Shown: positions 4,360-61,445 of the stretch, in pieces
Numbering within the stretch: the first letter of the stretch is position 1
Layout of the letters: every line of letters begins with the position of its first letter
NCBI GenBank assembly: GCA_037976565.1
Contig: CP137671.1
Span: 23,933,019-23,997,018 of the forward strand
Direction: 5' to 3'
From: Mesocentrotus franciscanus
Lineage: Eukaryota > Echinodermata > Echinoidea > Camarodonta > Strongylocentrotidae
Length of the DNA stretch: 64,000 nt
Translations under genes and position numbers: made by a program
Notes under the pieces: generated by a model
The model's database searches: none
Seen by the model: only the letters and a program-made list of their open reading frames with translations
Told to the model about the DNA's origin: nothing

Positions 4360-7300
4360 ATGGAGAAACAAGAGGTTGTTCCCGATGTCATTGATGTCGT
4401 GCCCGAGCACGTCGTCGAGATCGCCTGGTCTGATGACGTCATGACAAACATGGGCAACGAGCTAACTCCTACACAGGTGGGGGAAGTACCTTTTTATCAG
4501 TTTCTTTCTTTCTTCCTTTTTTAACATTTAATGTCATCGAGTTTGTTTTACACTGTTGTCGTTGTTGTTGCTGCTATTGCTGCTACTGTCGTTGTTGTTG
4601 TTGTTGTTGATTTTGTGTATGATTGTTCTTGTGACCATGTACTCAAGATGACACCCTTCTGGCCATATTTTTAAATTTCCTCGTGTACAAATGAATAAAA
4701 TATCTCTAAAGTGTCTTCTTGATTGTTAATATCAAAGATATTATTTAACATGGTCCTGAAAATATGTTTAACTTGCCTTTAACTTGATTCTAAAAAATGT
4801 AAGAAAACAAACATTCTTGCAAGTCTTAACACAAAATGATCAGCATTTGGTAAGATGAAATTAATGCTGCATTTCAAAGAGAACCCCATAAACGTTTATT
4901 CGTATGTGGTGTTATGAATTACTTCACAATCATATCACCTAAACATGAAGAATGATTTTATAAGAATTCCGCATCACGTATATACAAGTCGGATAGGCCT
5001 GCATCGGAGGGCTAAAATCCAAAGCCTAGTGAAATAGGGTGGTATTTTTTCATGAAATGGAATTGTTCATTTTATGAAAAGGAGCCGTTTCAGAACATCC
5101 AAGACAAAAATGAGTGAGAAGAGTAAAAGCATATCTCACCTACTTTCTGATCCACCCGCACATTTCTAGTATGGCATTAACGTCAGAATATATAATGCTC
5201 TGAAAATTACTCTATGCAGGGATTGTGAATATGATATTTTCAATTCAATGATTAGCTTGTATTAATGTAGTATACAAATATACACTGTCTTGAGAGGTTC
5301 TGGTTAAAACTATGCGCAAGAGGTGACTCCAATATTACTATTTGCTGAGGGGCGCAGCCCCGAAGCAAATGGTACTTTTGGAGTCACCGAGGCCCATAGT
5401 TTTAACCAGTACCTCGAATAGAAGGCATGGTATATTTGTTTTATATCCTGCATCAAAAATTTATTTTATTAAAATAAAAAAAAATAAAAAAATAATAAAC
5501 ATTTTTGGGACAAATTTAGAACAAAAAAAATGTCAATTTTTATCTAAAAAGATTTAGAATATTTTGTTTTCATTAAATTAAGATTTGAAGAAGAAAAAAA
5601 AATTCAATTCAAAAAAAAAAAAACAACATTTTTTTCAACTCCCAAATAGTACTCCCAAATAGTACTCTCATATAGTACTTTCTAAAAATAGTTCAAATAT
5701 TTCTGGTCATGTGACGAGCTCTCAACCAATCAAAAGCCAACAAATTTTTGATGCAGGATATATTTTGTCTATTTGATAAATAAGGAGCGGAAATAGTATT
5801 GCACTACATGTAGACCATATCTGTAACTTGATATTTGAAGGGGGAGTCTTTGAATATATGCTGCATTCATGCCATGCTATATCTGCATGTCTCCGGGATC
5901 AGAGACTGTTGTGACATTATACCCTACTGAAAGAATTGTAAGGAATTAATTTCATTCATCAAATTACTTTATAATTATTCCACGACCGAAGGCGTAGCAG
6001 GGGCGGAGGGGACTGCATGGGGCTGCAGCCCAAGATAATGTGGAAATTTCTAATATTCGGGTAATTGTTACCTCGTATTTGGGAAGAAAAAAGGTTGTAA
6101 TTTGTAATTTATTTTCTATGCTTTAAAATAGAAATTCAATGTGCGTTGAACAAACACTAAATGATCAATGAATGAATCAATTAATGGTAATGAAAAGATG
6201 AATGAATTAATGCATTTATGAAAAATGCATAAATTAATGATTGAACGAATATTTGGAGAAAAAAAAACACATTGAATTGATGGTTGAATGAACAAAGAGT
6301 TGAAAAAAAACATCAATCATTCACGCCTAAATAGGTAAAGTTTGCACCGACAAAATCATCCTGGCCCTCAGAACCTAATGCTCTATACACCTTGGTGATG
6401 ATCGACCCTGATGCTCCGTCTAGAAAGGATAGATCAGTGGGAGAGGTCCTCCATTGGTTGGTCATCAACATTCCCGGATGTCAGGTCAACCAAGGTCAAG
6501 TTCACGCAGAGCACATCGGCTCAGGACCCCGTGAAGGCTCAGGTGAGAAATTGCGTAATGTATTTTTTCTCTCTCCTTCATGATGGGTGTGTTTTTCGTT
6601 TAACTAGCTCTCACAATGTAAGCGTAATTATTTTTATATCATTATTAAAACCACCATCTTTAATACCATCAACATGATCACCATCGCCATCACCGTCATT
6701 ATCATCATCATCACCATCACTGTCATCATTATCATCGCCATCACTGTCATCATTATCATCATCACCATCACCATCACCATATCATTAACATAATTGTCAT
6801 CATTATCATCATCAACATCAAAATCACCATCATCAACATCACAATCATCAACATTATGTTCAGATCACTATCACCACCTCCAAAAACGCCACCACTACCA
6901 TCATCATGATCACCATCAGCATCGCCATATGTCGCCATCGCTACCGTTATCACCATGACCCTGTATCATTTAGCTGTTTGGTGGTTGTTGATGGTTGTCC
7001 CTAGACTAAAAGGTGGGGGGACAAGTCTAAAATTCTCTTTCCTCCTCCCCATCTGCCGCAGTCCGTTTGTTTTCNNNNNNNNNNNNNNNNNNNNNNNNNN
7101 NNNNNNNNNNNNNNNNNNNNNNNNNNNNNNNNNNNNNNNNNNNNNNNNNNNNNNNNNNNNNNNNNNNNNNNNNNNNNNNNNNNNNNNNNNNNNNNNNNNN
7201 NNNNNNNNNNNNNNNNNNNNNNNNNNNNNNNNNNNNNNNNNNNNNNNNNNNNNNNNNNNNNNNNNNNNNNNNNNNNNNNNNNNNNNNNNNNNNNNNNNNN

Positions 7301-10300
7301 NNNNNNNNNNNNNNNNNNNNNNNNNNNNNNNNNNNNNNNNNNNNNNNNNNNNNNNNNNNNNNNNNNNNNNNNNNNNNNNNNNNNNNNNNNNNNNNNNNNN
7401 NNNNNNNNNNNNNNNNNNNNNNNNNNNNNNNNNNNNNNNNNNNNNNNNNNNNNNNNNNNNNNNNNNNNNNNNNNNNNNNNNNNNNNNNNNNNNNNNNNNN
7501 NNNNNNNNNNNNNNNNNNNNNNNNNNNNNNNNNNNNNNNNNNNNNNNNNNNNNNNNNNNNNNNNNNNNNNNNNNAATTTTTACAGATATCGGAAATAATA
7601 ACAAATTATCGCCACGAGGTGACGAGGCGGCCAACATTGGTATTGATATATTCTATCTTTCAAATCTATATTGTTGAAATGTATCAATTCATATATACTC
7701 ATCATGACTATATATATGATTACATCTAAAAAGCGGCGAGGCGATTTTGGGGGACTATTTTGAACCCCCGCAAGTTCCGGCATCATTAACTAACACCATG
7801 GAGACCATAAAAAGTAGTGCATGATATAGGGGAGAGCGGGGAGTGTTCGCCCTATTTTTGATATCACTCTTCTAGAGCCGTCATTTAATAAGCAGGAAGA
7901 CCATGCTTTTTCATGTATCAAGGCATAGGTAATGTCTAGCTAATATCCCATTCTCACTGGGGTCAGGCACACAGTTTCCAAAAAAACGAATCATAAAGTT
8001 AATTACGACAAGGGCGAAACTGCCCCACCCTGGGGCTAATTCGTCCGTTTGCAGGTAAGGCCCTGTTAGGAAAACAATGATACATGAAACAAATATAGTG
8101 TTTTAAAACTTCAAAACATTTATTTAAAGGGAACTAGAGCCAAAAATAATCTCTGACGAAGGATGGGAACAAATAAGCTGAACCAAGGTGTACTGGGCGT
8201 AGAACAGCTGGTGATAACACTGAGCGGATTCACTCATCCAGAACGTATATAGTTTCAACTTCGCTTGCGGCAAACAAAGACTCAAAATGTCTTTCAATTC
8301 AATGAAATATTTATCAAAAAGTAGCTAGAGTCAACAAAATAATTTCCAACATAGTATGGAGAACAATAAGCTGTACCAGGCGCAAAACAAAAGATGTTAA
8401 CATTAAACGGATCTACCTGACCAACAACTATTATTTTCTTGACCTACTCTTCAAAATGGCAGTGTAGGTCAAAGCAAATGAAGGAATATAATCCCATTAG
8501 ATTTGCATGTCTGTAAAAATTGAGTATTTGTTAACACAATTAATAAAAATACCACTACACACAATTTGAATGAAATGCGCTTAAACCTTGCTACTACTGA
8601 AGTTGAATATAACAAATCCATAGGCCTTATTGAAAGGGGTCACATTGTGTCACCACGCCGATATAAAATGATATATTACATATCATAACTTTCTTGGCAT
8701 TTTTTTCGATGATTTCTCACAAAACAAATTAGTAAAATCACATTGCTTGATTGGTAATGTTGGTAAGGAAAATGCTTTTTTTGTGATTCCTGGAAGAGAG
8801 AAAAACACACACAGTAATTCATGCCATACGACTTTTAGTACCAATTGCGGTCGCCCCCAATCGAAAGTGGGGGGAAACACATTTTGCGCCCCCTCCCCTG
8901 AAAAAATCAGCAGTAAAGGAGTAAAAAGGTTTGTATTTTTAACCAAAATAAAATAAAAATGAATTGATCATAATCACAATTATATTCCATTCAAAGAAAA
9001 GGAGAGTAAACAGGAATTAAACTTCCTAAACATTCCGCATGCCCCTATATTTATCAATTAATGGAGTGTGGGTTTTTATGATAGGGTGAGAAGATGAGCC
9101 CCTGAACACTGGCGTACTGATGGGGGGGCAGATGCCCCCAAAATAAAATTCAAACGTGGTTTATTTCATATTCGATACCAGTGATTTACAAATGTTGCTG
9201 AAATGATATGATTTCCCAGATTTTTCTCAATTTCTGTATGCGTTTGTTGGAAAATTACAGATTCCCAAATTTACAGTCAGGCAAAAAATATGCTTATTTA
9301 GAAGCCTTCATGTCAGGATCTGCAGAACGACGGAGGCTCGGGGCTCGAGCCCCCCTCACTTTTTTGAAAAAGTATGTTAAAGAGAAAAAGAAAGAAAGAG
9401 AGAAAGAAAGAATGAGTGACCCCCTGGACCCCACCAAGGGAAGGAGGGCCCCTGGATGCTCATCTGACCGTAATTAAATGCCTAAAACCCCTGAGCTTCA
9501 TGGGGCTAAGCCCCCTCGACCCCCGCCACTTATTGACCTGCCAGTGCCACAAATAAGGTATCAAAATATGGTCATCTGACCGTAATTAAATACCTAAAAC
9601 CCCTGAGCTTCCGGGGGCTCTGCCCCTGGACCCCACCAAGGGCCCTAAGCCGGGCCCCTGTATGCTTATCTGACCGTAATTAAATGCCTAAAACCCCTGA
9701 GCTTCATGGGGCTAAGCCCCTGACCCCCGCCACTTATTGACCTGCCAGTGCCACAAATAAGGTATCAAAATATGGTCATCTGACCGTAATTAAATGCCTA
9801 AAGCCCTGAGCTTCCGGGGCTCTGCCCTGGTCCCACCAGGGGCCCTAAGACGGCCCCCTGAATGCTCATCTGACCATAATTAAATGCCTGAACCCTGAGC
9901 TTCATGGGGCTCAGCCCCATGGACCCTGCTGAATTAGTGACCTGCCAGTGTCAAATAAGGTATCTAAATATGCTTATCTGACCGTAATTAGTGCCTAAAA
10001 CCCCTGAGCTTCCGGGGGCTCCGCCCCTTGTACTTTTTGCTCATTACGCTACTGCCCCTGAAAGGTGAGCCCCTGAATGTTTGCCCCCAATCCCAAACTG
10101 CTTCCGGCACGCCTGCCACATTGAATGGGGTAAGTTCGCCACTCAATGCGGGGCAAGTCCGCCCGGGTGAACATGACCCGTCAAAAACGGCGAACTACCC
10201 ATGGGCTGTTATCGTCGTTTATCTCGTTCTAGGCAAATGTACAACCAATGTTGACTTGTTCCAACATTTTTCAGTAGACACATACCATACCTTAACAACA

Positions 10301-13300
10301 AAAACAACCATCACCACCTTCATCAATGTCTACAGGTAAATACAAGAAATGTAAAGACAATTTTTTTACTTAAATGGCCTTGAAATGGAAATTTTAGCGT
10401 AATTTCGTTTATCAAAGAGCCATTGTCCTCGTTCCGTTGTATGTTGTACGGTGTGGCTAGTTTGTCATTACATCATCGGCGAAAGTTTTATCCAATCACC
10501 GCAAGGCTGAGAATCAAGTGGTGGGTGGACTTGCCCCCAGGGCGGACTAGCCCCGCTCTCCCCTACGTCTTTTTAAATCAACTAATACACAGTTCCTGGG
10601 GGGTTAAACCCCCTAAACCCCCGTAGATTCGCCACTGCCAAGAGTAGGGATTTCTTTCTTTTCTCTTCTCATTATTCTCCTTTTCCCCATATTCTCTCCT
10701 CCGTCTTTCCCCTTTCTTCCTTTTCCGCCTTTTCTCTCCTCTCTGGCCTGATCTTCCCCTTTCACTCCTTTTTCCCCCTCCCTTTTCTCCTCTCCCCTTT
10801 TCTCTCCTCCCTCTTTTCTTCTTCTTTCTCTCTTCCCTTTTCTTTCTTTTCACCTGTTTTTGTTCTCCTTTTCTCCCTTTTCTTTTTCCCCTTCCCTTCC
10901 TCCTTTGTTTTACCGGGGCACGTGCCCCCTGAATCCGCCACTGGGTATATGACATATATGAGAGTAAAGAGAACCAAGTCGAACTTTTTATTTAAATAGT
11001 TATTACATGTAATTAGCATCTAGGTTTAAAAGCGGTAGGCACTTTTGAGGCGACTTTGACGTGAGCGGAAGTGAATTCACAGTAAAGGTCACGAAGCCTG
11101 ATAAATATTCATGAGGCAAATCTAGAACTTTACGAAATGAATATTAATCGCGTACTGACCAATCATAGACAAAGAAATCGTGAAAATCTTCACACATACA
11201 CTCATAGCCTACACCTCACTCTACGTTCGCCTCACCTCACTGTACGTTCGCCTCATTTTCTCTCTGGGTTCTCTTTAGTAAATCCAACATGACTTTGTCT
11301 TTGTTTGCAACATTGAATTGTTTTGATTTCTATAGTCTAGATTAATAGGCCTATAGGAATATAATTATTGTGCCAAATCTCATGTTAGCACCTAAATACA
11401 GAAGTCATTAAGAGAAATGAAACATAAATGTTTTAATTAATTCACTATAATATAGGCTAAAGTACGCCTCACTCTACGTTCGCCTCACCTCACTGTACGT
11501 TCGCCTCATTTTCTCTCTGGGTTAATCTCTTTAGTAATCCAACATGATCGACTTTGTCTTTGTTTGCAACATTGAATTGTTTTGAATTCTATATTCCAAA
11601 GAAGAATCTGTTCACTCTTGCAAAATAAAATGATCCATTTACATAAATTCAACGTAGATCTAAAATTAATGTTTTAATTTAGTATATATATGATACCTAT
11701 ACACCTCACTTTGCGTTCGCCTCACCTCACGGTACATTCGCCACATATTCTCTCTACTACTATCTAACTTGATCTAATTGTTATTTGCATTTAATTGTTT
11801 TTGAATTCTATATCCCAAAGTACCACTTGAATTAAATTATTGTACGTTATATAATGTTGCTAGGCCTACACCTATAATCTATAATACACCTCACTCTACG
11901 TTCGCCTCACCTCACTGTACGTTCGCCTCATTTTCTCTCCGGGTTCTCTTTAGTAAATCCAACATGACTTTGTTTTTGTTTGCAACATTGAATTGTTTTG
12001 ATTTCTATATTCCAAAGAAGAATCTGTTCACTCTTGCAAAATAAAATGATCCATTTAGATAAATTTAACGTAGATCTAAAATTAATGTTTTAATTCAGTA
12101 TCTATACACCTCACTTTGCGTTCGCCTCACCTCACGGTACATTCGCCACATATTCTCTCTACTAAATCCAACTTGATCTAATTGTTATTTGCATTTAATT
12201 GTGTTTGAATTCTATATCCCCAAGTATCACTTGAATTAAATTATTGTACGTTATATAATGTTGCTAGGCCTACACCTATAATCTATAATACACCTCACTC
12301 TACGTTCGCCTCACCTCACTCTACGTTCGCCACATAATTATCTCTATATACATACATAAATCCAACATGACTTTGTTTGCATTTAATTGTTTTGAATTCT
12401 ATAGTCTAGATTAATAGGCCTATATATAGGAATATAATTATTGTGCCAAATCTCATGTAAGAACCTAAATCCAAAAGTCATTAAGAGAAATGAAACATAA
12501 ATGTTTTAATTCACTATATAGGCCTACACCACTCTACTCTACGTTCGCCTCACCTCACTGTACGTTCGCCACATATTATTCTCTCTTTAGTAAATCCAAC
12601 TTGACTTTGCCAGTTTCCATTTGATTATTTAAAATTCTATATTCCAAACTATTAATTTCATTAAATTCGTACTGCGCATAATCTGTTCACTCTTGCAAAA
12701 ATAAAATGTCACATTAAGAGAAATTCAACGTTAATGTTTTAATTCAGTAGGCCTATGATATATCCACAACTCACTCTACTTTCGCGTCTCACCTCATTGT
12801 ACGTTCGCCACATAATTCTCTCTATAGGCTATACATAAATAAATCCAACATGACTTTGTTTGCATTTAATTCTTTTGAATTCTATAGTCTAGATTAATAG
12901 GCCTATAGGAATATCTCATGTTAGAACTTAAATACAAAAGTCATCAAGAGAAATGAAACATAAATGTTTTAATTCACTATATATCTACACCTCACTCTAC
13001 GTTCGCCACATATATTATTCTCTCTTTAGTATAAATCCAACTTGACTTTAATTGTTTGCATTGAATTATTTAACAAAATTATATTCTAAACTATCATTTT
13101 CATTAAATTCGTATTGTGCGTAATCTGTTCACTCTTGCAAAAATAAAATGTCACATTAAGAGAAATTCAACGTAAATGTTTTAATTCAGTATGTGATAAT
13201 ATATTATGATCAACACCTCACTTTACGTTCGCCTCACCTCACTGTACGTTCGCCACATAATTCTCTCTACATAAATCCAACATGACTTTGTTTGCATTGC

Positions 13301-16300
13301 ATTGTTTTGAATTCTATATATAGTCCATAATAGGAATATAATTATTATGCCAAATCTTATGTTAGAACTTAAATACAAAAGTCATTAAGAGAAATGAAAC
13401 AAACATGTTTGAATTCACTTTACAGTGTGAGTCAAAACAAAAGTTTACACCTAGAAAATTGCTAATTATTTTAACAATCATTTATGAACAGTAAATTATT
13501 ATACATCTTATGAAAGAGTGTTTTATCCCAAATCATTTGGTATCATTTTTGTGTGGCATGTGTTCACGCTTGGATGAACAGGAGACACTGTTTAAGAGAA
13601 TGCCTTGTGATCTGATTGTTGTTCCTTGGTATCTTTAATGTCTTGTTAAATGACATGTGTGTATTGGCTGCGACCAGGGGCGGCGCCAGGTTATTTCGTT
13701 AGGGAATGGGCGCGCTAGCGCCATCGTCGCGCTTGCCCGACGCAGGGCACAGGCGCAACGGAAGCAGTTTGGGATTGGGGGCAAACATTCCAGGGGCTTA
13801 CCTTTTCAGGGGCAGTGGCGTAATGGGCAAAAACGTTTAAGGGGCAGAAGAAAAATCTGCATCACCACCACTCTTACATGTTACATGCAGACCCCACGGA
13901 ACGTTTTTCAAAGTGGAGTATTAACGATCAGGTAGAGCGTAGCGAGCGTAAATGGTGTGGGGTCCAGGGCGGAGCCCCGGAAGCTCAGGGTTATAGGCAT
14001 TTAATTACGATCAGATAAGCATATTTAGATACCTTATTAGTGACACTGGCAGGTTACTCATTCTTTCTTTCTCTCTTTTGTTATTCTCTTTAACATACTT
14101 TTTCAAAAAGTGAGGAAAGGCTCGAGCCCCTGAGCCCCGCTGCTCTGCAGGCCTTGACATGAAGGCTTCTAAATAAGCATATTTTTGGCATGACTGTAAA
14201 TTTGGGGATTTGTAATTTTCCAACAAACGCATAAAAAAGTATAATTTACAAAAAAAATGAGAAAAAATCCCGCAAAATCATTTCATTTCAGCAACATTTG
14301 TAAATCACTGGTATCGAATTAGAAATGAACCCCGTTTGAAGCCCCCCCCCCATCAGTACGCCAGTGTTCAGGGGCTCATGTCGCCCCCGTTCCACACCTT
14401 GTTGGCGGGGAAAATCTCAACTGATCCCCCACCTTTCTTCTTCCTCTTTGTCCTTTCCCTTTCTCTCCTCTTTCCCTTTCCCTTCCCTTCCTTCTCTCTC
14501 TTTTAAACTTGCTGGGGGCGGGGCAAGGGGCTTTCGGTCCCCCCGATCCACACGTTGTTGGCCGAATTGATCGCAACTGATCTCCCCTTCTTCTCATGTC
14601 GCCATTATAAAATCCTCCATTGATAAATATAGGGGCATGCGGAATGTTTAGGAAATTTAATTCCAGTTTACTCTCCTTTCTTTGAATGGAATATAAATTT
14701 TATGTGATTAAATTCAGGTTTTATTATTTCTTATTTTCTTTTTGGTTAAAAAATAAAAACAATTTTTACTCCTTTACTGCTGATTTTTTCGGGGCCTGTT
14801 TTTGTTTGGTGGGGTGAGGCGAAAATGCGTTTTGCCCCACTTTTCGTTTGGGGCGATCCCCCACACACACACTTCCGGCGCCCCTTGCAGGATGTGCCCC
14901 TCAAAAGTTGAAGAATTTTTAGGAATTGAGGCTCGATTTGGTGCATACTTTTGCCAAATTAAAAGAAAAACAAAGTTATTAAGTTCAACTAACAAGAACA
15001 AGCTCAATTTTCTCTATCTTATTTTTTTCTTTTCCCTCTCCCTACCCTCCCTTACGTCATACATATTTACATTTTATAGTTCTCTTCCTCCTGGCCTTCC
15101 TCCTTTTCTTCCCCTTCCTTCCCCTTCCTTTTCTTTTCTTCTCCTTTTTCCTTTTCTTTTCCTTCTCCTTTTCCTCTTTTTCCTTCTCTTCCGCTTCCTT
15201 TTTTTGAAAATGATAGGGCGGCCGCCCCTGACCCCTGTGGCGCCGCCCTGGCTGCGACCTAATATACAGATGGACTTTCATTTGTTTTATTAATTTATTG
15301 TGATTGTCTACGTCAATGCCGTGTCAATAACATTCCATACATGTTTCTCCACTTTGAACTTATGATCGGTCCACCGCCAATTAGCCGTGAGAAAGACAGT
15401 GATTTGACCACTTAAATCACTTGATCATGGAATATCGATGTTCAGTGAACCGTGTGTTATATTTTGGAAAACTTGTTGATAGTACATAATTATTTGTATG
15501 TGCCTTGAGCATCTCTAGGGATGGATATGTTGCGCTTCATAAATATGGTTATGATTATTATTATTATTAATAGAGGTTATATTTTGATTGATTGTTTAAG
15601 ATTTAGAATCCTGTTTTACCCATTTTCATCATCTTATTCTTTAGTTACACTGGACGGGCTTATAAAGATAATGGCATTCTAGTTGTTACATGGGCGTGCG
15701 AAAACGTGCACATTTTGTTCATATCTCACAAATCATATAGTTCTCAACATTTCTGCTCATCATCGGCAGTGTTTTGATTCAAGAAAAATACTCTTACAAA
15801 GCACACCAGCCAAAAAAGCCAGGAGATGGAAACTTCTCCTTTGCTAATGACAGAACCTGCTTTAAAGATACTATGTCCCTTTGCAGCCAACATCAAATTC
15901 TGTAGAACTTTGCAGGAATTATGAATATGTCATGTATGTCCTATCTGTGAAATTTAAACGTTAGCAGTGTCCTAATATTCAAATTATGCAAGGAAACCCA
16001 TTTAATCGCTAGACTTCACTGTCAGACACTATTGAGTGACTGACTGGCTTTTTTCTTCTTTGGTAATAACATACATAAAATGAGCTGTAAAGAGTACATG
16101 AGCATTTGTCTACATCAATAACCAACTTCTTGTAATGGCCAAAATTAAACTGATTGAATCTTTGCGCAGCATAAAACGTACGACCATTCGGTACAATGGT
16201 CTGAAAATCAGACTATTACTTACTGGCTCTATAGCTCTTAAGTCGATTCGACAACTAATAGTCGTTATTTTCCCACTTAAAGACATTTTCAAGCCTCCCC

Positions 16301-18329
16301 CCTTTTTTAGGGAAGTTCTAAATTAGTATTGTCTTTCAAATGCCGTTGGAATTTAACCTTTTCATTTTTTTTGGCCTGCAAATGGGACATAGTACCTTTA
16401 ATATGCAACTGTTAATGTGACATTTTATTTTTGCAAGAGTGAACAGATTATGCACAATACGAATTTAATGAAATTAATAGTTTGGAATATAGAATTTTAA
16501 ATAATCAAATGGAAACTGGCAAAGTCAAGTTGGATTTACTAAAGAGAGAATAATATGTGGCGAACGTACAGTGAGGTGAGGCGAACGTAGAGTGAGGCGA
16601 ACGTAGAGTGAGGTGTAGGCCTATATAGTGAATTAAAACATTTATGTTTCATTTCTCTTAATGACTTTTGGATTTAGGTTCTTACATGAGATTTGGCACA
16701 ATAATTATATTCCTATATATAGGCCTATTAATCTAGACTATAGAATTCAAAACAATTAAATGCAAACAAAGTCATGTTGGATTTATGTATGTATATAGAG
16801 ATAATTATGTGGCGAACGTAGAGTGAGGTGAGGCGAACGTAGAGTGAGGTGTATTATAGATTATAGGTGTAGGCCTAGCAACATTATATAACGTACAATA
16901 ATTTAATTCAAGTGATACTTGGGGATATAGAATTCAAACACAATTAATTGCAAATAACAATTAGATCAAGTTGGATTTAGTAGAGAGAATATGTGGCGAA
17001 TGTACCGTGAGGTGAGGCGAACGCAAAGTGAGGTGTATAGATACTGAATTAAAACATTAATTTTAGATCTACGTTAAATTTATCTAAATGGATCATTTTA
17101 TTTTGCAAGAGTGAACAGATTCTTCTTTGGAATATAGAAATCAAAACAATTCAATGTTGCAAACAAAGACAAAGTCATGTTGGATTTACTAAAGAGAACC
17201 CAGAGAGAAAATGAGGCGAACGTACAGTGAGGTGAGGCGAACGTAGAGTGAGGCGTAGCTAGCTTTATAGTGAATTAATTAAAACATTTATGTTTCATTT
17301 CTCTTAATGACTTCTGTATTTAGGTGCTAACATGAGATTTGGCACTATAATTATATTCATATATAGGCCTATTAATCTAGACTATAGAATTCAAAACAAT
17401 TAAATGCAAACAAAGTCAGTGTTGGATTTATGTAGAGAGAATTATGTGGCGAACGTACAGTGAGGTGAGGCGAACGTAGAGTGAGGCGTAGGCCTATATT
17501 ATAGTGAATTAATTAAAACATTTATGTTTCATTTCTCTTAATGACTTCTGTATTTAGGTGCTAACATGAGATTTGGCACAATAATTATATTCCTATAGGC
17601 CTATTAATCTACACTATAGAAATCAAAACAATTCAATGTTGCAAACAAAGACAAAGTCATGTTGTATTTACTAAAGAGAACCCAGAGAGAAAATGAGGCG
17701 AACGTACAGTGAGGTGAGGCGAACGTAGAGTGAGGTGTAGGCTATGAGTGTATGTGTGAAGATTTTTCACGATTTCTTTGTCTATGATTGGTCAGTACGC
17801 GATTAATATTCATTTCGTAAAGTTCTAGATTTGCCTCATGAATATTTATCAGGCTTCGTGACCTTTACTGTGAATTCACTTCCGCTCACGTCAAAGTCGC
17901 CTCAAAAGTGCCTACCTTTAAAAGCATTCAAACCCATTCCCGTACTCCCATTTCCAACACTCTCAACTGATATGTGCAAAACTTTCTTCTTTTATTTTTG
18001 ATTGGACGCTTTGGAGACACTATAACCTCCCTAATTGGAAGCTGGCTTATTGGTCGCAAGTTTCAGTTCAGACTTAAGTGCATAATTTTACAAAAAGACG
18101 TCTTTTTAAACACTGTAACAAGTTAGTTCTTTGGTTCAGTTAACAGGTCAACTCTTTACTGTGGATGTCATTTGCATTTGGTATGTATGATTAAATAATT
18201 GGACCTAGCTATAATTAGGTCTAGTATTAATAAACAAGTAGACTAAGTTAGTAGCCTACCTACCGTAATTAACTACCGACTAGACTTACCGTTGTCAGCG
18301 GCGCGGCGTTGACTAAATTCATAGACTCT

Positions 18330-18973: not shown

Positions 18974-21900
18974 CTGCCTCTCTGTCTCTTTCTCTTTGTT
19001 TTCTCTCTCTCTCTGTAGCTGCCATGGTTCATTAGAAAGAAAGTTGTGGTCACCTCTCCCCTCCAGTTGGCTTTTAGAATAAAAGAATAGGAATTAGGGA
19101 GAGCAGATCAGTGAGAGTTTGAAGAAAATCTGAAACAGGATTTAGACTTCTAGATCTATAAGAGTTATGACATTTTTCATTCATAATTGATTGTATGCAC
19201 TATGCAAATTGGCAACTCTGTGAATATTTCAGATAGTTGACCTTTTTTCAGACTGTGCTTCCTGGCCAGATAATCCTGAATCTCCTACTAGATGCTAGAA
19301 GAAAAAGGATAACAAAAATTAAGAATTTTAAAGTTGTAATCTGTCAAATGGAAATTGGCAACTTTGTGACAGGGCGTTTTAGGCACTTTTCTCACTTTCT
19401 CATTTGTACTGTTCTAGAAATCTCACATGTATATGATAACCTTCCTTTTTTTCTTGTCACAGATTATTCAGGCTAGTGCCCCATGTCAAAGAAATTCTGG
19501 ATCCATCTCTGTACATTACAAGATCGAGAGAATACCCCTTGGAATGGCAGACAGTTCTCAAGGTGACTTTGTCATCATAGGAGGTGGCGTGGCCGGGGTA
19601 TCTTGTGCAGAGCAGCTGGCCCACCTGAGTCCAGATCGCAAAATTAAGCTGTTCACAGCATCTCCCCTCCTCAAGGCCGTTACCAACTACAAAAAGGTAT
19701 TCAAGCCCCCTAAAAACACAGAAACGCTTAGGGGGAAGGGGTGGCATTGCATTCAGGAATATTGTTTTCATCGCACAGCTTGAGCTATGCATTGATGCAT
19801 TGCAGGTAATTGATGATATTCTGTGGGGATTTTTTGTTATAGTTTATTACTTTATTCTACATTTCTGAATGATTACAAACATATGAGAAATTTAAACTTT
19901 CTAGTACCAATATTTCTTCTGGTCACCTGTAAATATAATTTAAAGTTGTTTGATAACGTCTCATTTGGTCTTACAAGCATTAAATATGCTGCATTTCACA
20001 TATTTGTTTGTATATATCGACAAAGAACATGATACTGTTGTGCATAGTCTAGATCCCCCATCCTTTCAAGCCTTTTCTTAACCCTTTCTATTTGTCAGAC
20101 ACTTCCAACTACATGTATTTCTTTGTTTTTCTTATCAATTAATTCGAATTCAGGTGTCCCGTGCCTTAGAAGACTTTGATGTTGAAGAGAAGCCATCTCA
20201 ATGGCTGGAAGTCAAATGCCCCAATGTAGAGGTCATCAGGTCAGAGGTCAAAGGACTTGACTCGGAGCAACATCTCATCAAGACGAAAGATGGTCATCAG
20301 AGTGGCTACTCTAAGATCTGCGTCTGTACGGGAGGGAGCCCTAAGCTCATTGCAGCAGATAACCCATATATTTTAGGTACAGTCAGACCTGCTTTAGTAG
20401 CCAGGGCATTGTTTCATGAAACCGGCAGAAGTACAAGTTCACCCGACACCGCCATCCCATTCAAACGTGTGTTAATCGTAATACACACAAACAAGAACTT
20501 GTACTTATGACAGTTTGGTGAAACTCTGCCCTGCTTTACAAAAGACTAAGTGTCTATGGAGATGACATTTTTGTGTATATCCTGAGCAGAGTTTGTTATT
20601 GAATCATCGATCAGATGAACCTATGGTTAAAGACCACCTGCCTATTTAAGTATGAAGGCCACTCTTCGTGTCTCCATTGACTAGATTTCAGAACAGGTTT
20701 CACTTAATTTACATGCAGTCTAACCCGTCTGTCAAGGCCACCTAAGAAAAATGGTACAAGGGAAGGCAGCCTTTTGAACAAGTAAAGTCTCTTTGAAGAC
20801 GATAGAAATGGCCATTAAATTCAAATGTATATCTTGCCACTTGGGTAGATTTTAATAGTATCCCTACTTCATGCCACTCTTGCATTTAAGGGGGAGTGGG
20901 AATAGAAAGAAAAGGAAAATAATCGTGAATAAAACATGGTAGCCTTTTCCTCCAGTAGTTGATGAAATTTGATAGATTATTTTTGAGAAAGACTTAAATT
21001 AACTTTGATCTGATAGTGAATGTCAGGCCTCAAAGTGTTTGATTGCTGATTATCTTTAGATAAATCACTTTATCAAGTACACCTTCCTCTCCTTTATCAG
21101 GAATCAGAGATACAGAGAGTGTCAGTGCTTTCCAGAAGCACTTGGAAGGAGCGAGGAGAATCGTAGTGGTTGGAAACGGGGGCATAGCAACCGAACTGGT
21201 GTACGAAGTGGAAGGATGCGAGGTGATTTGGGCTATCAAGGATAACTCCATCTCCAGCACGTTTGTGGATGCTGGAACAGCAGAGTTTTTCTTACCCCAC
21301 CTCACAGAGGAAAAGAAGACAACAGACCAAGGGCCTTCAAAGCGGTTGAAGTATACAGGTTAGACTGGACTTTCTAGAAATCTCATGTATCCAACTTTTC
21401 TCTGTTTCATATACTCACATCACTGTATTCACATGTCTGCGTTTTCTTATATTCTTCATTCATGTACCTTTCACATTCTCTCTCTCTTTCTCTCCCCCCC
21501 CCTCCTCTATCACTCTTCTTCTCTCTCTCTCTTTCTATCTCTTATTATCTTTGCTCGTGTATAAATTTCTATAGTTGATTATTCTGTGAACTAATTGTCC
21601 ATTAATGTATATCTGAATGCCCCCAAAAAAAAAACCTTTCAAACAAGATGACTCTTGTCAATTCCATTCAGAAAGAACTTTCTGATCTTTAATTATACTT
21701 TATCCCTTAACATTTAGGCAAGGGCATGCCGAGTTGTCAATAAATATTTCGAAAAAGGCATTTATAAAGATGACCTGACAAAATATTAATATTGAGGTAA
21801 ATTTGGTTAGATGTGTAAGGTTACGTGGTCGTGAATTAAGGGATCGTGAGCATGTAAATATGTAGAGGCATATTAGAGACACAGTTCACAGTTGTATTTA

Positions 21901-24900
21901 TCTAGTTTTTTATGTGCATGTACATGTGTAGTACTCTCATTATCCCCTTCTTTTTTTTTACCTGTCTATAATTAGTTACCAAATCTTCCGAGGGCGACAC
22001 AAGGAAAGAGCCTGGTGTTCTGGGTAGCGCACTTGGCCCTGATTGGAGCTCTGGTTTGAACATGAGAGGCCAAGGGTCGCAGTCACATTCTGTTCATGTG
22101 GAATATAAGTGTGAGGTAAGCAACAGTCTTCTCATTACACTGATTTTGGTTGGAAGATCTTGAGTGGGGGGTTCAGGACAACTGCTCTGGACTTTATTAA
22201 TTTCATCAAGTCAAGTTCAGAGTGTGATGAGGTTAGGGGTTAGGGTACCGATTAGGTAGACTTGTATACCAGGCTTGTAGTTGGGAATTTGGTCAGGGTA
22301 GGTTATTAAGTTGAGCAAGTGTCACCAAAGGATGTACAACCTCAGTGGGATATTTTGCTTTCTCTTCTGGTAATTATTATTATTATTTTTTTCTTCCATG
22401 ATGTTGTTCAATGCCAGGTTTTTAGAAATGGGTACCCAGTAGGATGCAAAATAGTGTTTGCATAGTGCAAGCCTCTATAATAGCACCTGGCTTTATAGAC
22501 TATATTGCAACCCCGGGAATGGTGCGTCATTGGTCCTATGTGAGTCGGATATCGGGTTACCATGACGCACCCGTGTCAACATTTTGACGGACCATTCAAC
22601 TACATGACGGTATATACGGTGACTTATGTGACGCACCATCTCTTGATTTTGAAGACACACAGGTAAACTGACTGACAATGACGCAATACTTTTGTCATGA
22701 TATGACGGACCAAAGGTTGATTTGACGGTACCTGCGTCAAAAATGTTTTGGTAAATGACCCAACCATGACGCACCATTCCCGGGGGTCGCTAGGTGCGTC
22801 TTACAATTGATAAGTGCATAAAAGAAAAGGAAACTATATTTTTCCCTTCACTTTTGTTTATACCAGATTCAAGAGTTACTTACTCCTGAAGAAGCCAAGA
22901 TGTTGGGGATCACGGAAACTGTACCTGACATTGCAGGTGCTATATCCCACCCTACAAACTCCTGGCCTATTTATGTCAAACTTACAAACAGCAAAATATA
23001 TGGATGTGATTTTATTGTGAGTGCAACAGGAGTGACACCAAACACACATATCCTCTCAGATGTACCGAATCTGAAACTTGCTCAAGATGGTGGTATCGAG
23101 GTCGATGATCACATGAGGACTAGTGTTGCAGATGTTTACGGCGGGCGACGTCTGCACCCCAACATGGGATCCCGCTCCAAACTGGATCCAGATGCGACTG
23201 TGGTCACAGGCTCGTCAGATGGGCGCATATGCCGCTAAGTGCATGGTGGCCGACGTGGACGGAGAGAAGATCCCGCAAGATTTCTGTTTCGAGCTGTTCG
23301 CCCACATTACACGGTTCTTCGGTTTCAAGGTCGTCCTGCTGGGGAAGTTTAACGGCCAGGGACTGGGATCTGACTATGAGGTCTTGCTGCGGATGACAAA
23401 GGGCGTGGAGTTTGTGAAGCTGGTGATGCACGAGGGATTGATGAAAGGTGCCATCGTGATCGGAGACACAGACCTCGAAGAAACCTTTGAGAATCTCATC
23501 CTGAATGAGATGGATTTAAGTAGATATGGAGAGGACTTGCTAGATCCCAACATTGATATTGAAGATTACTTTGACTAGCTAATCGTGATTGTAGACACTG
23601 ACCTTTGACCTTTAATAATCTTATTCTGAATGAGATGGACTAGCGTATCCCGTACTTGACATTTAAGTAAAATCACACGGTTTTATTCAGATTGTACACT
23701 AAGGAGATTGCTATTTTATAATCCTCTACCTGTCATGCTTTTTATTTTTTTAATTTATGACAAAGAATTATTGTAAGTTTTTAATTACTGAATTAAAATT
23801 ATTTATGAAATACTTTTAAAGGAAACCTCACCCCAAAGAATAAGTGTAGGTATTCTGAAAAATGAGATGTATTCCTGCCCTTTGATTTACAATATTCCAT
23901 ACAAAAATGTACAAGAGATATATAAATGAAGATATTCTTGGCATGATGTGATGCCTTTTAGCATGACATGGGCGCAGTCATTTTCTTGAAAATGTGACGT
24001 ACCAGTTGAAGTTGTACATGTATCATGCACCAAGCTTTAGTTTGAAAGACTTTTAAATCAATAACAAAACCATTACTTTTCAATGAGAAAAAATCATAAC
24101 TGAGAAGAGAGAAATTATATTTGGTGAAAAATAAATAACAGGGGAACAATTGCAACTAATTCATTTAAAAATACTAAAATATAGCAGTTGTCAAATCTAT
24201 TTCGTTTATGAGAAACCTTCACCCCAGAAGAGCACCAACTTATTAATGCAATTTGCATTCCGGCAATTGTAGTACAAAGGATAATAGCAGGTGAATAAAA
24301 TCTTCATCACCACACACGCCTGGGGGAATACATTTACTTGATAAACGACTTTGCACAGTACGTCACTTTATCAAGATAATGGTGATGCCCATGTCGTGCT
24401 GAGAAACTGCTCATTATTCTTGCTTTATACCTCTCTCATACACTTCGGTGGGGAATCTTCTAGATTAATGGGCAAGAATATCACAAATCTCTCAGAATAA
24501 GTAAAGTTATTTCTTGAGATGCGGTTTCCTTTAAGTTTAAGGAGGGGCTTGGGATTCTTGCATTCATTTTCTACATGTGCCTTGCTTAAATTTATTTATA
24601 CATGTACTATCTTTTTTTGGAAGGGGGGGGTTCACCCCTAGCCCCATCTCGAATCACTGCTAGATGCAATCTTTTGGTATTTAATTACAGTGTAATGCAT
24701 TTAGAGTGCCATATTTTGTTCAGGAAACAAATCCAACTGTGGATATTTTAAGAATAAATATATTTTTACGATTTTTCAGAGAAGAAATAATGTGTCTATA
24801 TTCTGTAGTCTATACATAGTGGTTATAGCATTGTACATCTTTTCATGTAATAGTGGTAAGTAGCAAGAATGGTAATGCAAATGGGTAAAATTTTGAATTA

Positions 24901-28000: not shown

Positions 28001-28981
28001 TCTAACCCAATATATTTGGGTAAAATACAGCTCCATCAAGCCCTCTGTTCCTCTGTCTCTAGCTCACTATCGTCATAATGAGTCCTTCTTTGGTGGCGTG
28101 TAATGGCTCCTACATTTCTCGTGGAATACCTGCAAAAAGATATAATAAAATAAGCTTAGAGTGAAGAGGCAACATTGGNNNNNNNNNNNNNNNNNNNNNN
28201 NNNNNNNNNNNNNNNNNNNNNNNNNNNNNNNNNNNNNNNNNNNNNNNNNNNNNNNNNNNNNNNNNNNNNNNNNNNNNNNNNNNNNNNNNNNNNNNNNNNN
28301 NNNNNNNNNNNNNNNNNNNNNNNNNNNNNNNNNNNNNNNNNNNNNNNNNNNNNNNNNNNNNNNNNNNNNNNNNNNNNNNNNNNNNNNNNNNNNNNNNNNN
28401 NNNNNNNNNNNNNNNNNNNNNNNNNNNNNNNNNNNNNNNNNNNNNNNNNNNNNNNNNNNNNNNNNNNNNNNNNNNNNNNNNNNNNNNNNNNNNNNNNNNN
28501 NNNNNNNNNNNNNNNNNNNNNNNNNNNNNNNNNNNNNNNNNNNNNNNNNNNNNNNNNNNNNNNNNNNNNNNNNNNNNNNNNNNNNNNNNNNNNNNNNNNN
28601 NNNNNNNNNNNNNNNNNNNNNNNNNNNNNNNNNNNNNNNNNNNNNNNNNNNNNNNNNNNNNNNNNNNNNNNNNNNNNNTTCTCATACCATCCTTCCTTTT
28701 TTCTGATCCAACTTCCTTCTATTTCGTTCAATTTGATAGGTCTCCATCGGTATGTATTTCTGGTCTACCGGCAACCTGGTCACATGACCCCACCCTCCGG
28801 GGAGGAAGCCTACAGGCCCCGCAACAGCGAGCGGCGAATCAGATGGAATGCCAGGCGTTTTGCTTTGGAACACATTCTCGGCAGACCGGTGGCTGCCAAC
28901 TTCTACCTTGCCAAGTACGACGATTACGTGCCAACATTTTATAAAGAACTGCATGCCAACGATCCTGATCACGCTAATTAG
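4360..28981 (+). CDS. PEBP1: Phosphatidylethanolamine-binding protein (PEBP/RKIP family), three coding exons
   Basis: Exons at 4360-4476, 6335-6542 and 28740-28981 join in phase (0, then phase 1 completing a Gly codon) to give 188 residues, matching the ~187 of animal PEBP1. The family's first conserved block DPDAPSRKD is at about residues 63-71, followed by a His near 79, the GSGP turn near 101-104 and the second block [10 protein letters not shown] from about 109. These form the anion/phospholipid-head pocket. Family members bind phosphatidylethanolamine and nucleotides, and vertebrate PEBP1 restrains Raf kinase; both are family knowledge, not visible here. The start at 4360 is preferred over an in-frame ATG at 4342 because the added residues (MFIFIL) fit no PEBP N-terminus. 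Splice sites are canonical. Intron 2 is 22.2 kb, carries two 500-N gaps and contains PYROXD1 on the same strand, so the link between exons 2 and 3 depends on the scaffold order. The C-terminal third is unusually Arg-rich. Confidence 0.85.
4556..4612. repeat. GTT/GCT trinucleotide microsatellite
   Basis: Runs of GTTGTTGTT interrupted by GCTGCTATT, within the first PEBP intron. Confidence 0.8.
5294..5762. mobile_element. Hairpin-capped repeat element H1
   Basis: 5294-5415 is a near-perfect palindrome: CTGGTTAAAACTATG and GAGGTGACTCCA recur as complements on the other side of a GC-rich core (GAGGGGCGCAGCCCCGAAG). Next comes an A-rich stretch bounded by a perfect 21-bp inverted repeat (TATATCCTGCATCAAAAATT plus one T at 5442-5462, complement at 5742-5762). 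Just before the right copy is CTCTCAACCAATCA, shared with the similar element at 48723-49022. It lies in PEBP intron 1 and has no coding capacity. It could be a MITE of an undescribed family. Confidence 0.65.
6600..6925. repeat. Degenerate ATC/CATCAC microsatellite
   Basis: Dense ATCATCACC and ATCGCCATCAC words just downstream of PEBP exon 2. The low-complexity reverse-strand frame at 6774-6956 is a product of this tract. Confidence 0.8.
7075..7574. other. Assembly gap, exactly 500 N
   Basis: A run of 500 N. The round number indicates a placeholder of unknown true length, so order and distance across it rest on scaffolding rather than sequence. All open frames crossing it are meaningless. 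Confidence 0.99.
8650..10112 (+). repeat. Copy A of an internal repeat, direct orientation
   Basis: Blocks here match the reverse complement of 13745-15000 in the same order: a block with AATCAGCAGTAAAGGAG (8909 on), GAACACTGGCGTACTGATGG (9104 on), a Lys/Glu-rich tract near 9370, and GTTTGCCCCCAATCCC (10079 on). Frames such as 8747-8956 and 9208-9477 belong to the repeat. It is probably a non-autonomous DNA transposon, but its own ends are not clear in this copy. Confidence 0.65.
9440..10025. repeat. Tandem array of ~105-bp half-units (about 210-bp higher-order unit)
   Basis: The phrase TGACCGTAATTAAATGCC followed by CTAAAACCCCTGAGCTTC recurs near 9463, 9568, 9670, 9779, 9868 and 9980. Alternate copies carry CATGGGGCT and CCGGGGGCT after it, so units alternate in type, giving an ABAB arrangement. 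A single inverted unit is at 13925-14060. Confidence 0.75.
10566..10940. repeat. Fragments with GGCGGATTCAG-type transposon ends and a pyrimidine-rich tract
   Basis: At 10924-10943 the minus strand reads CCAGTGGCGGATTCAGGGGG, and near 10626 it reads CAGTGGCGAATC. Both resemble the CAGTGGCGGATCC ends of hAT-type elements, such as the complete one at 63272. Between them is a C/T-rich tract (10650-10905) that generates long Lys/Arg/Glu frames on the minus strand. No gene is supported. Confidence 0.5.
11025..11033. repeat. Left 9-bp target-site duplication TTTAAAAGC
   Basis: Identical to 17917-17925. The two copies directly abut the outer ends of the foldback element. Confidence 0.85.
13435..13675. 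other. Left part of the foldback element's central segment
   Basis: Non-repetitive sequence starting TACAGTGTGAGTCAAAAC, a Tc1-like terminal look (CAGTGTGAGTCAAAACAAAAG). No matching right end or transposase is seen. Confidence 0.35.
13676..15249 (-). mobile_element. Nested 1.57-kb DNA transposon (copy B), flanked by a 10-bp duplication
   Basis: The element begins AGGGGCGGCGCCAG and ends with the imperfect complement CTGTGGCGCCGCCCT. The 10-bp sequence GGCTGCGACC occurs immediately on both sides (13666-13675 and 15250-15259), a clean target duplication. The interior is largely the inverted counterpart of 8650-10112 and includes a pyrimidine-rich block at 15020-15200. A 9-10-bp duplication with GC-rich ends is compatible with a Mutator-like element. 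Frames at 13657, 14364 and 14802 belong to it and encode nothing recognisable. Confidence 0.75.
15260..16401. other. Right part of the foldback element's central segment
   Basis: AT-rich sequence without repeats of the arm modules. It includes a retroelement-like tail near 15517-15571 (GGGATGGATATGTTGCGC, then ATT repeats). No transposase domain is seen in any frame. Confidence 0.4.
17917..17925. repeat. Right 9-bp target-site duplication TTTAAAAGC
   Basis: Direct repeat of 11025-11033, abutting the right end of the foldback element. Confidence 0.85.
18329..18660. repeat. GAT trinucleotide microsatellites
   Basis: A pure (GAT)n run at 18330-18370, followed by a degenerate GATGATGGTGATGAC tract at 18490-18655. 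Asp-rich and Met-rich frames here (18420-18742) are products of the repeat. Confidence 0.9.
18900..19016. repeat. CT-rich microsatellite
   Basis: (CT)n and CTGTCTGTCT runs about 0.5 kb upstream of PYROXD1. Reverse-strand Arg/Glu frames are artefacts of the repeat. Confidence 0.9.
19544..23578 (+). CDS. PYROXD1: PYROXD1, pyridine nucleotide-disulphide oxidoreductase domain protein 1 (one frameshift)
   Basis: Five coding exons: 19544-19696, 20154-20376, 21101-21358, 21976-22115 and 22867-23578, all with GT-AG borders and compatible phases. They give about 495 residues against about 500 in human. The FAD-binding GGGVAG motif is at residues 13-18, the second nucleotide-binding motif GNGGIA is in exon 3, and the conserved C-terminus [16 protein letters not shown] closes the protein. 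The family is a class-I flavin oxidoreductase that uses NAD(P)H and lacks the classical CxxxxC redox pair; in vertebrates it is nuclear/sarcomeric and is linked to myopathy. In exon 5, the expected VYAAGDVC reads out of frame: two bases are missing at about 23140 (TACGGCGGGC where TACGCGGCGGGC is expected), giving an early stop at 23236-23238. The rest of the exon is intact in the shifted frame, so sequence error is the likeliest cause. The ATG at 19544 is chosen over an in-frame upstream one at 19427, which sits in intron-like pyrimidine-rich sequence. An ATTAAA at 23792-23797 could be the poly(A) signal. Confidence 0.93.
20379..20775. mobile_element. Degraded member of the CAGTCAAACCTG MITE family
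   Basis: Within PYROXD1 intron 2, the sequence opens with ACAGTCAGACCTGCTTTAGTAG and near its end has CAGTCTAACCCGTCTGTCAAGGCCACC. Both resemble the family's ends, but no clean target duplication remains. Confidence 0.45.
22507..22790. mobile_element. Short DNA element packed with TGACG motifs
   Basis: The ends are inverted repeats (GCAACCCCGGGAATGGTGCG on the left, complement of GCGACCCCCGGGAATGGTGC on the right) of about 25 bp. Inside, TGACG-core words recur about ten times in 284 bp (ATGACGCACC, TTGACGGACC, ATGACGGTA and others) in both orientations. It sits in PYROXD1 intron 4 and has no coding capacity. Confidence 0.65.
23820..24530. mobile_element. TTAA-flanked MITE downstream of PYROXD1
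   Basis: TTAA at 23816-23819 and 24531-24534 flank a segment starting AGGAAACCTC and ending GCGGTTTCCT. Subterminal matches (AAAGAATAAG left, CAGAATAAG right) continue the symmetry. TTAA targets are typical of piggyBac-type elements. It begins about 25 bp after the possible PYROXD1 poly(A) signal. The phrase AAACCTCACCCCA-AGA recurs internally near 24213. Confidence 0.65.
24935..25060. repeat. GA-rich microsatellite
   Basis: (GA)n runs with GGGAGG interruptions. The Ser/Leu frames on the minus strand are products of the repeat. Confidence 0.9.
25150..26690. other. AT-rich sequence within the PEBP intron, nothing recognised
   Basis: No exon with splice sites and conserved sequence, no RNA gene and no clear repeat could be supported on either strand. 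Confidence 0.4.
26695..26850. mobile_element. CAGTCAAACCTG MITE, copy 2
   Basis: Perfect CAGTCAAACCTG inverted ends with TA at 26693-26694 and 26851-26852. The interior is very close to copy 1 (GTGGTCTTTGTAGACAGGTTCC and ACATGTTTCAATGAGAAA occur in both), but one internal repeat is lost. Confidence 0.85.
28036..28129 (-). CDS. Orphan terminal exon of a minus-strand gene
   Basis: Reading leftwards, a strong acceptor (TATCTTTTTGCAG) at 28130-28142 is followed by an open stretch ending in a stop. In phase 0 it encodes [18 protein letters not shown] and stops at 28073-28075. With one base carried in, a 30-residue Arg/Glu-rich tail stops at 28036-28038. The first looks more protein-like to me, but the phase cannot be settled without the upstream exon. 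That exon would lie to the right, inside or beyond the 500-N gap that starts 50 bp away. Nothing matching is seen between 28679 and 31150, where PEBP exon 3 sits on the other strand. I do not recognise the protein. Confidence 0.4.
28179..28678. other. Assembly gap, exactly 500 N
   Basis: Second 500-N placeholder. PEBP exon 3 begins 61 bp after it. All open frames crossing it are meaningless. Confidence 0.99.
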
Positions 28982-61284: not shown

Positions 61285-61445
61285 GGCGCGATAGCTCAGT
61301 TGGTAGAGCAGTGGTCTCGTAATCCAGTGACCCGGGTTCGAAACCAAGTCGATGCGCTAGTGCCCTTTGGTAAGGCATTAATCCTCATTACCAGGTATCT
61401 CGGAGAGGACCTAAAGCTGTCGGTCCTCTTGTTGCTTATTCTAGT
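61285..61445 (+). repeat. SINE with tRNA-like head
   Basis: The head GGCGCGATAGCTCAGTTGG (A box), TCTCGTAATCC around a CGT anticodon position, and GGTTCGAAACC (B box) is tRNA-like, but the acceptor and T stems do not close, and it runs on without a break into CCCTTTGGTAAGGCATTAAT and a unique-looking body. It is therefore a tRNA-derived SINE, not a tRNA gene. It is in the first NDC80 intron. Confidence 0.7.

Follow-up and report, generated by a model that had tools for sequence, protein, structure and literature searches.

The stretch of DNA analyzed here, referred to as the window, comprises 64,000 nucleotides of contig CP137671.1 of the sea urchin Mesocentrotus franciscanus (positions 23,933,019 to 23,997,018 of the forward strand); coordinates given below are those of the window. 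Positions 11034–17916 are occupied by a genuine, recently active foldback element of 6,883 bp, both ends of which were recovered elsewhere in the genome, and this confirms the observation made in an earlier note on this DNA. The element is flanked by an exact 9-bp target-site duplication, TTTAAAAGC, at 11025–11033 and 17917–17925, and its inverted ends GGTAGGCACTTTTGAGGCGA directly abut both copies of the duplication. The left terminus begins with an outer domain devoid of modules (11034–11214, + strand), which aligns to the right outer domain (17735–17916, − strand) over 181 bases with no mismatches and one gap. Within these domains, the outer 59 bp of the left end (11034–11092, + strand) are shared as a 59-bp match with a 420-bp relative (L050), and BLAST of this and two further relatives (L050–L052) against the window element delimits the corresponding 59 bp of the right end (17858–17916, − strand).

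The remainder of each arm is built from tandem modules of 184–253 bp, ten in the left arm (about 11034–13425, 2.4 kb) and six in the right arm (about 16402–17916, 1.5 kb). Four related module types, A, B, C and D, and a chimeric type a were distinguished by segmentation and a type classifier. The resulting string for the left arm is a B C B C A D A D A; that for the right arm, from the outside inward, is a a B C A D. The left modules, all on the + strand, are L1 (a, 11215–11467), L2 (B, 11468–11705), L3 (C, 11706–11889), L4 (B, 11890–12110), L5 (C, 12111–12294), L6 (A, 12295–12532), L7 (D, 12533–12770), L8 (A, 12771–12991), L9 (D with a single head, 12992–13217) and the innermost L10 (A, 13218–13425), the inner edge of which is approximate, the segmentation cut lying at 13450. 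On the right, all on the − strand, R1 (a, 17486–17734) is followed inward by R2 (17253–17485), R3 (B, 17032–17252), R4 (C, 16848–17031), R5 (A, 16597–16847) and a truncated R6 (D, 16402–16596). By half-by-half comparison, module L1 is a chimera in which a B-type 5′ half is joined to an A-type 3′ half, the composition that defines type a: its 5′ half has 2/119 mismatches to B versus 12/106 to A, and its 3′ half 7/125 mismatches to A versus 23/96 to B. In R2, the 5′ half is closer to A and the 3′ half closer to a.

The head sequence TACGTTCGCC, allowing at most one mismatch, is found 32 times in the window, 31 times within the element, compared to a mean of 0.50 and a maximum of 2 in shuffles. 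Likewise, the left arm contains 19 and the right arm 12 copies of the 21-bp head unit (at most four substitutions), which is absent from both strands of the remaining window. The termini are thus long, inverted and made of internal tandem repeats, as is characteristic of the foldback class. The description in the earlier note of inverted arms of about 2.4 and 1.5 kb, with a nearly identical outer 190 bp, modules of 190–250 bp, repeated heads and a 9-bp duplication at both edges, is borne out, and the reading given there holds in almost every respect.

Situated between the arms is an interior of about 3 kb (13426–16401) without coding match, about 2.1 kb of which are made up by two captured mobile elements. 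The larger one, a hAT-like element at 13675–15250, carries the ends CAGGGGCGGCGCC and CAGGGCGGCGCC (CAG ends) and is bordered by the 8-bp duplication GCTGCGAC at 13667–13674 and 15251–15258. The second, 532 bp in length (15866–16397), has a TTAA duplication and the ends AGRTACTATGTCCC.

A search of the source genome (773 Mb in 21 contigs, the window lying on contig C6) with a 30-bp terminus pattern, allowing up to three mismatches, yielded 112 matches (56 forward and 56 reverse), while the reversed pattern, used as a control, yielded none; no match was obtained when viral and prokaryote collections were scanned for patterns. With the first 201 bases, comprising target duplication and end, as a query, the best 40 of 115 candidates were 98–100% identical. 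These alignments start at the same terminal base or a few flank bases away, and the whole duplication is covered only by the alignments to the window's own two ends. Pairs with a spacing below 15 kb were built from the termini among the matches listed (100 of 112): 74 of these termini form 37 pairs, which span 420–12,498 bp with a median of 7,135 bp, and 26 are unpaired.

Twenty places were fetched, of which 16 hold both ends, and an exact 9-bp duplication is present in 14 of the 15 that are testable. Together with the window copy, L045 and L028, the fetched set provides 18 long copies with both flanks; the duplication is an exact 9 bp in 16 of them, has one mismatch in nine positions in L028 and measures 8 bp in L012. 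The duplicated target sequences vary between copies. Target-site duplications are therefore found at independent copies, which share the same terminal base instead of ending at different positions, and both points uphold the proposal of the earlier note that the element moved as a unit. A local check for empty sites among the fetched loci returned none, the two spanning rows (L021 and L050) being self-matches.

Two unusually long pairs were considered as autonomous copies and rejected. At the 12.5-kb pair on contig C15, the 7.5 kb read (L044, C15:25083000–25090500) consist of two interiors joined by back-to-back arms; no terminus among the matches listed lies between the two interiors, and by this arrangement L044 is a fused pair of elements. 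The 9.9 kb read from the 28-kb pair on contig C17 (L043) mostly differ from the family, with 1,909 of 9,901 bases matching it, and none of three frames scanned exceeded the Pfam cut-off. Of the 12.2-kb copy L026, the first 10 kb were read.

The interior of the window element is widely shared. When 2,920 of its bases were compared with the 16 other fetched copies, 10 matched over 97% and four over 77, 52, 29 and 22%, and L017 and L028 matched over only 7 and 20%. The captured elements are not late insertions into the window copy alone, since 10 of the 16 copies match 97% of the interior. In line with this, each of the captured elements shows its left junction in all 11 aligned interiors; the right TTAA junction is matched in none of the 11 cut interiors, window included, as the cut interiors end there. 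For the 603-bp stretch between the captured elements, the best 40 of 690 genome candidates are 97–100% identical. Judging from these copies, the family acquired the two elements ahead of its burst and carries both along. An extra divergence of both captured elements relative to the remaining interior appeared strong initially but lost its significance after removal of CpG columns and of columns next to gaps (Fisher p 0.23 each), and no constraint is claimed for them on that account. Pfam scans of 12 frames of the window element, nine frames of relatives and six further frames (three of L043, one of L018 and two of L042) gave no match above the cut-off. As far as it was read, the family is thus non-autonomous.

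Among the 11 copies with a full interior (the window copy and 10 others), pairs differ on average by 10.1 substitutions, corresponding to 0.63% over 1,589 gap-free columns. By this measure the family is young, although no date is claimed, and the low divergence fits the fairly recent insertion that had been suggested. The arms display a different behavior. No two of the 11 copies have the same pair of arm strings, and there are nine distinct strings on one side and 10 on the other. Most strings follow a common grammar, a^n(BC)^m with an outer run of a, which ends in A D on one side and in A D A D A on the opposite one, where n and m vary. Eight copy pairs separated by only 1–3 substitutions differ by 2–13 module edits, and over all 55 copy pairs, which are not independent of each other, module edits do not follow substitutions (rho 0.17, p 0.20). 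These are direct signs that the arms change faster than the sequence, and differing arm lengths, in line with the growth and shrinkage of arms previously suggested on the basis of unequal module numbers within the window, are directly visible between copies. Since types a and B have their 5′ halves in common, homologous exchange can drop whole modules or form chimeras.

Several observations limit how far this can be taken. L010, L011, L022 and L025 depart from the simple grammar, and L017 and L028 do so most. The classifier mixes up types a and A in places, which renders edit counts approximate; such a mix-up accounts for one of the two edits that separate the closest pair, L012 and L023. Moreover, L018 and L020 hold runs of N near an arm (500 and 3,224 N in all), which suggests that long inverted arms break assemblies, and mis-assembly of such arms is possible. 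Whether the arms are remodelled gradually or at nearly every transposition cycle, by gains, losses and half-module swaps at excision or gap repair, can be phrased as a specific proposal; we regard the latter as somewhat unlikely. If it were true, arm structure would serve as a jump counter decoupled from the substitution clock.

Within a single copy the two arms tend to resemble each other. In the window copy, opposite arms differ by 0–1.2% over aligned stretches, and their corresponding modules by 0.4–1.2%, whereas the modules that recur within the left arm are 2.7–8.7% different from each other. Across 15 copies, left and right outer domains differ by 0.54% within a copy versus 0.65% in other pairings, a value as low being reached in 29 of 20,000 permutations. 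The greater likeness within copies fits what conversion across the hairpin would produce. However, the effect in the outer domains is small, and for the BC pair the contrast between within-arm and between-arm differences reaches a Fisher p of only 0.033.

Short relatives reveal which part of the element could be needed for movement. The 420-bp element L050 has an exact 9-bp duplication and lacks modules; its match to the family is confined to the outermost 59 bp at either end, with one mismatch in the left half and two in the right half. L052, a relative of 400 bp, shares the first ~59 bp and likewise has an exact 9-bp duplication. In a further related copy, L051, the right end deviates from the consensus and no duplication was established. 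Positions 290–350 of L050 have a tRNA-derived look by eye. Since L050 and L052 are free of modules and yet bordered by exact 9-bp duplications, modules seem dispensable for movement, and about 59 bp of terminus would be enough. The modules may nevertheless raise efficiency, as argued for Galileo (PMC3688188).

This bears on the question of whether the module heads are functional sites, kept by selection as transposase-binding or transposition-enhancer sites, for which the sites bound by the THAP domain of Galileo are a precedent (PMC3688188). Across the four module types, heads have a mean identity of 0.91 versus 0.65 for the bodies, yet 8 of 152 circular shifts reach this difference. The terminus holds TGAGGCGA..GTGAG, which resembles the head on the opposite strand; the likeness is weak, with 86 of 2,000 shuffles scoring as high, and the terminus was rejected as an inverted module head for this reason. 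Moreover, heads are missing from the 400- and 420-bp relatives, whose 9-bp duplications are exact, and head similarity could equally be explained by recombination at repeated sequence. A function of the heads as selected binding sites is therefore conceivable, but we lean against it. An origin of the arms as an inverted duplication made during assembly was already disfavored: palindromes assemble poorly and two fetched copies contain runs of N near their arms, but numerous loci that differ in module counts and in their duplications have identical ends and inverted arms. The recurrence of the inverted structure in differing flanks elsewhere in the genome shows that it is no product of assembly at this one locus, and we consider this explanation hardly conceivable.

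The superfamily of the mobilizing enzyme is less directly accessible. P elements and Galileo generate target duplications of 8 and 7 bp, respectively, which differs from the exact 9 bp found in 16 of the 18 long copies, a single copy having 8 bp. The observed 9 bp lie within the 8–11-bp range of Mutator-like elements (MULEs), which often duplicate 9 bp, and Rehavkus elements duplicate 9 bp as well (PMC6446971). Against a MULE stand the results of searching for one. No copy was found in which the ends of the family enclose a transposase, as the earlier note had advised looking for, no profile search for Rehavkus or P-type enzymes having been made. The genome contains 57 matches to the MULE domain, none of them inside the 37 pairs built from the 100 termini listed, and the closest match is 32.8 kb away from a terminus among the matches listed. 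The best 12 of the 57 MULE loci (short) hold neither heads nor termini; L047 and L049 have no heads and no terminus-like 12-mers; L048 has no heads and two loose terminus-like 12-base matches with two mismatches each; and L042, in which only heads were looked for, has none. With no enzyme found, placement in a superfamily rests on duplication length and precedent (PMC6446971, PMC3169594, PMC4079207). An enzyme from another superfamily, either P-element/Galileo-like or undescribed, would agree with the lack of MULE matches inside the pairs, and the foldback form does arise in the P superfamily, as Galileo demonstrates (PMC3688188). However, a duplication of 9 bp is what MULEs and Rehavkus typically make (PMC6446971; PMC3169594), and we judge an enzyme from outside the Mutator-like group to be unlikely. 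The Mutator/Rehavkus group is favored because the duplication measures 9 bp, and there may be a diverged autonomous MULE partner.

The MULE loci also gave some observations of their own. L030–L041 belong to one MULE family with sixteen equal top-scoring genome matches, and among the best 12 loci listed, 11 are 98.6–99.5% identical to L030. In L042, 9.9 kb around one MULE match, no inverted repeat of at least 25 bp brackets the domain. Some repeat sequence is common to L048 and the L017 and L028 interiors.

Comparison with known systems was made by description. The sea urchin element TU has tandem arm repeats of about 15 bp and duplications of 8 bp, which sets it apart from the window element with its 9-bp duplication and modules of 184–253 bp. 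The closest published case found is Tetris of Drosophila virilis, a foldback element that has terminal inverted repeats (TIRs) consisting of an outer flanking domain and a variable number of ~220-bp tandem repeats, duplications of 8–10 bp, no coding capacity and no known autonomous partner (PMC4079207). The miniature inverted-repeat transposable element (MITE) DAIBAM shares the TIR end with Tetris, and two Tetris alleles differ by one repeat (PMC4079207). The same source cites sea urchin among the hosts of foldback elements. Common to Tetris and the family described here are the outer domain, the repeats of similar length and varying number, the lack of coding capacity and a module-free relative sharing the TIR end; in contrast, four alternating module types, a doubled 21-bp head per repeat and two captured elements are found here, in another host. 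As a working type we refer to the element as a Tetris-type foldback, a likening by description.

Three other systems share part of these features. Rehavkus-1_TC of Tribolium, about 9.5 kb long, has inverted termini with tandem arrays of a 164-bp unit (PMC10218199, PMC6446971) and 9-bp duplications (PMC6446971), but it encodes a PHD-finger transposase, for which no counterpart was found here, and the listed hosts are arthropods and annelids (PMC10218199, PMC6446971). In the Mutator/Foldback element Tm1 of Meloidogyne, the TIRs are composite and vary in length, the duplications mostly measure 9 bp, and there are non-coding as well as MITE-like groups; unlike the present family, it has repeats of 13–15 bp, and a copy carrying a Phantom-type transposase has been described (PMC3169594). 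Galileo of Drosophila resembles the family in its long TIRs with ~210-bp repeats, the number of which varies between arms and copies, and differs in belonging to the P superfamily, in its known transposase remnants and in binding sites that have been tested (PMC3688188, PMC3573991). No named sea urchin family of this kind was found in the literature; Repbase and Dfam were not covered, and it may be catalogued there. As far as searched, the element is a new representative of an already known kind.

Identical ends, 9-bp duplications, many copies and no coding match in the scanned frames were observed, together with captured elements that travel along and module numbers that vary between assembled copies. 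Taken as a whole, we consider it probable that the element is a young, non-autonomous, cut-and-paste foldback transposon that is mobilized in trans by a Mutator/Rehavkus enzyme and whose modules recombine; it is best read as a Tetris-like family, probably moved by an enzyme of this type. The trans-acting transposase, for which the Mutator/Rehavkus group is the likeliest source, would recognize the outer ~59 bp or less, and this recognition would be independent of the modules. The modules themselves could expand, contract and swap halves via unequal exchange or single-strand annealing between the repeated heads, with the repair of excision gaps as the probable occasion, while conversion across the hairpin would keep the two arms of one copy alike.

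Beyond the element, the + strand holds the exons of PYROXD1 at 19544–23575, the first of them about 1.6 kb past the right end. The stitched protein is 85% identical to the eukprot entry XP_011670008.1, which we take to be from Strongylocentrotus purpuratus, and 78% identical to that of Lytechinus pictus; for the last exon, the values are 95% and 91%, respectively. These values point to a sea urchin host close to, but probably distinct from, S. purpuratus. On the other side, a 204-bp unit is repeated about three times at 9421–10028, and neighboring stretches in 8896–10115 are related to the captured hAT-like element. By eye, a hAT-type end is seen at 10919–10943, close to the left flank of the insertion. 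Further outward, an exon-like frame at 6335–6580 matches the phosphatidylethanolamine-binding protein family (PEBP-like) above the Pfam cut-off, the sole pass among eight other frames of the window. A tRNA match at 61286–61356 lies above the Rfam gathering score, and two runs of 500 N (7075–7574 and 28179–28678) are probably scaffold gaps.

The purpose of long repetitive foldback arms is unsettled: they may provide binding sites, form a hairpin structure or be a by-product of recombination. Dozens of near-identical copies with different arms are found here in one genome together with module-free relatives sharing ends of ~59 bp, so that the roles of terminus and arm become separable. The family thereby offers a natural test case for arm growth and shrinkage and adds to the sea urchin repertoire a kind of foldback that differs from TU. 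Moreover, it is a possible seed of satellite-like arrays and of inverted-repeat rearrangements.

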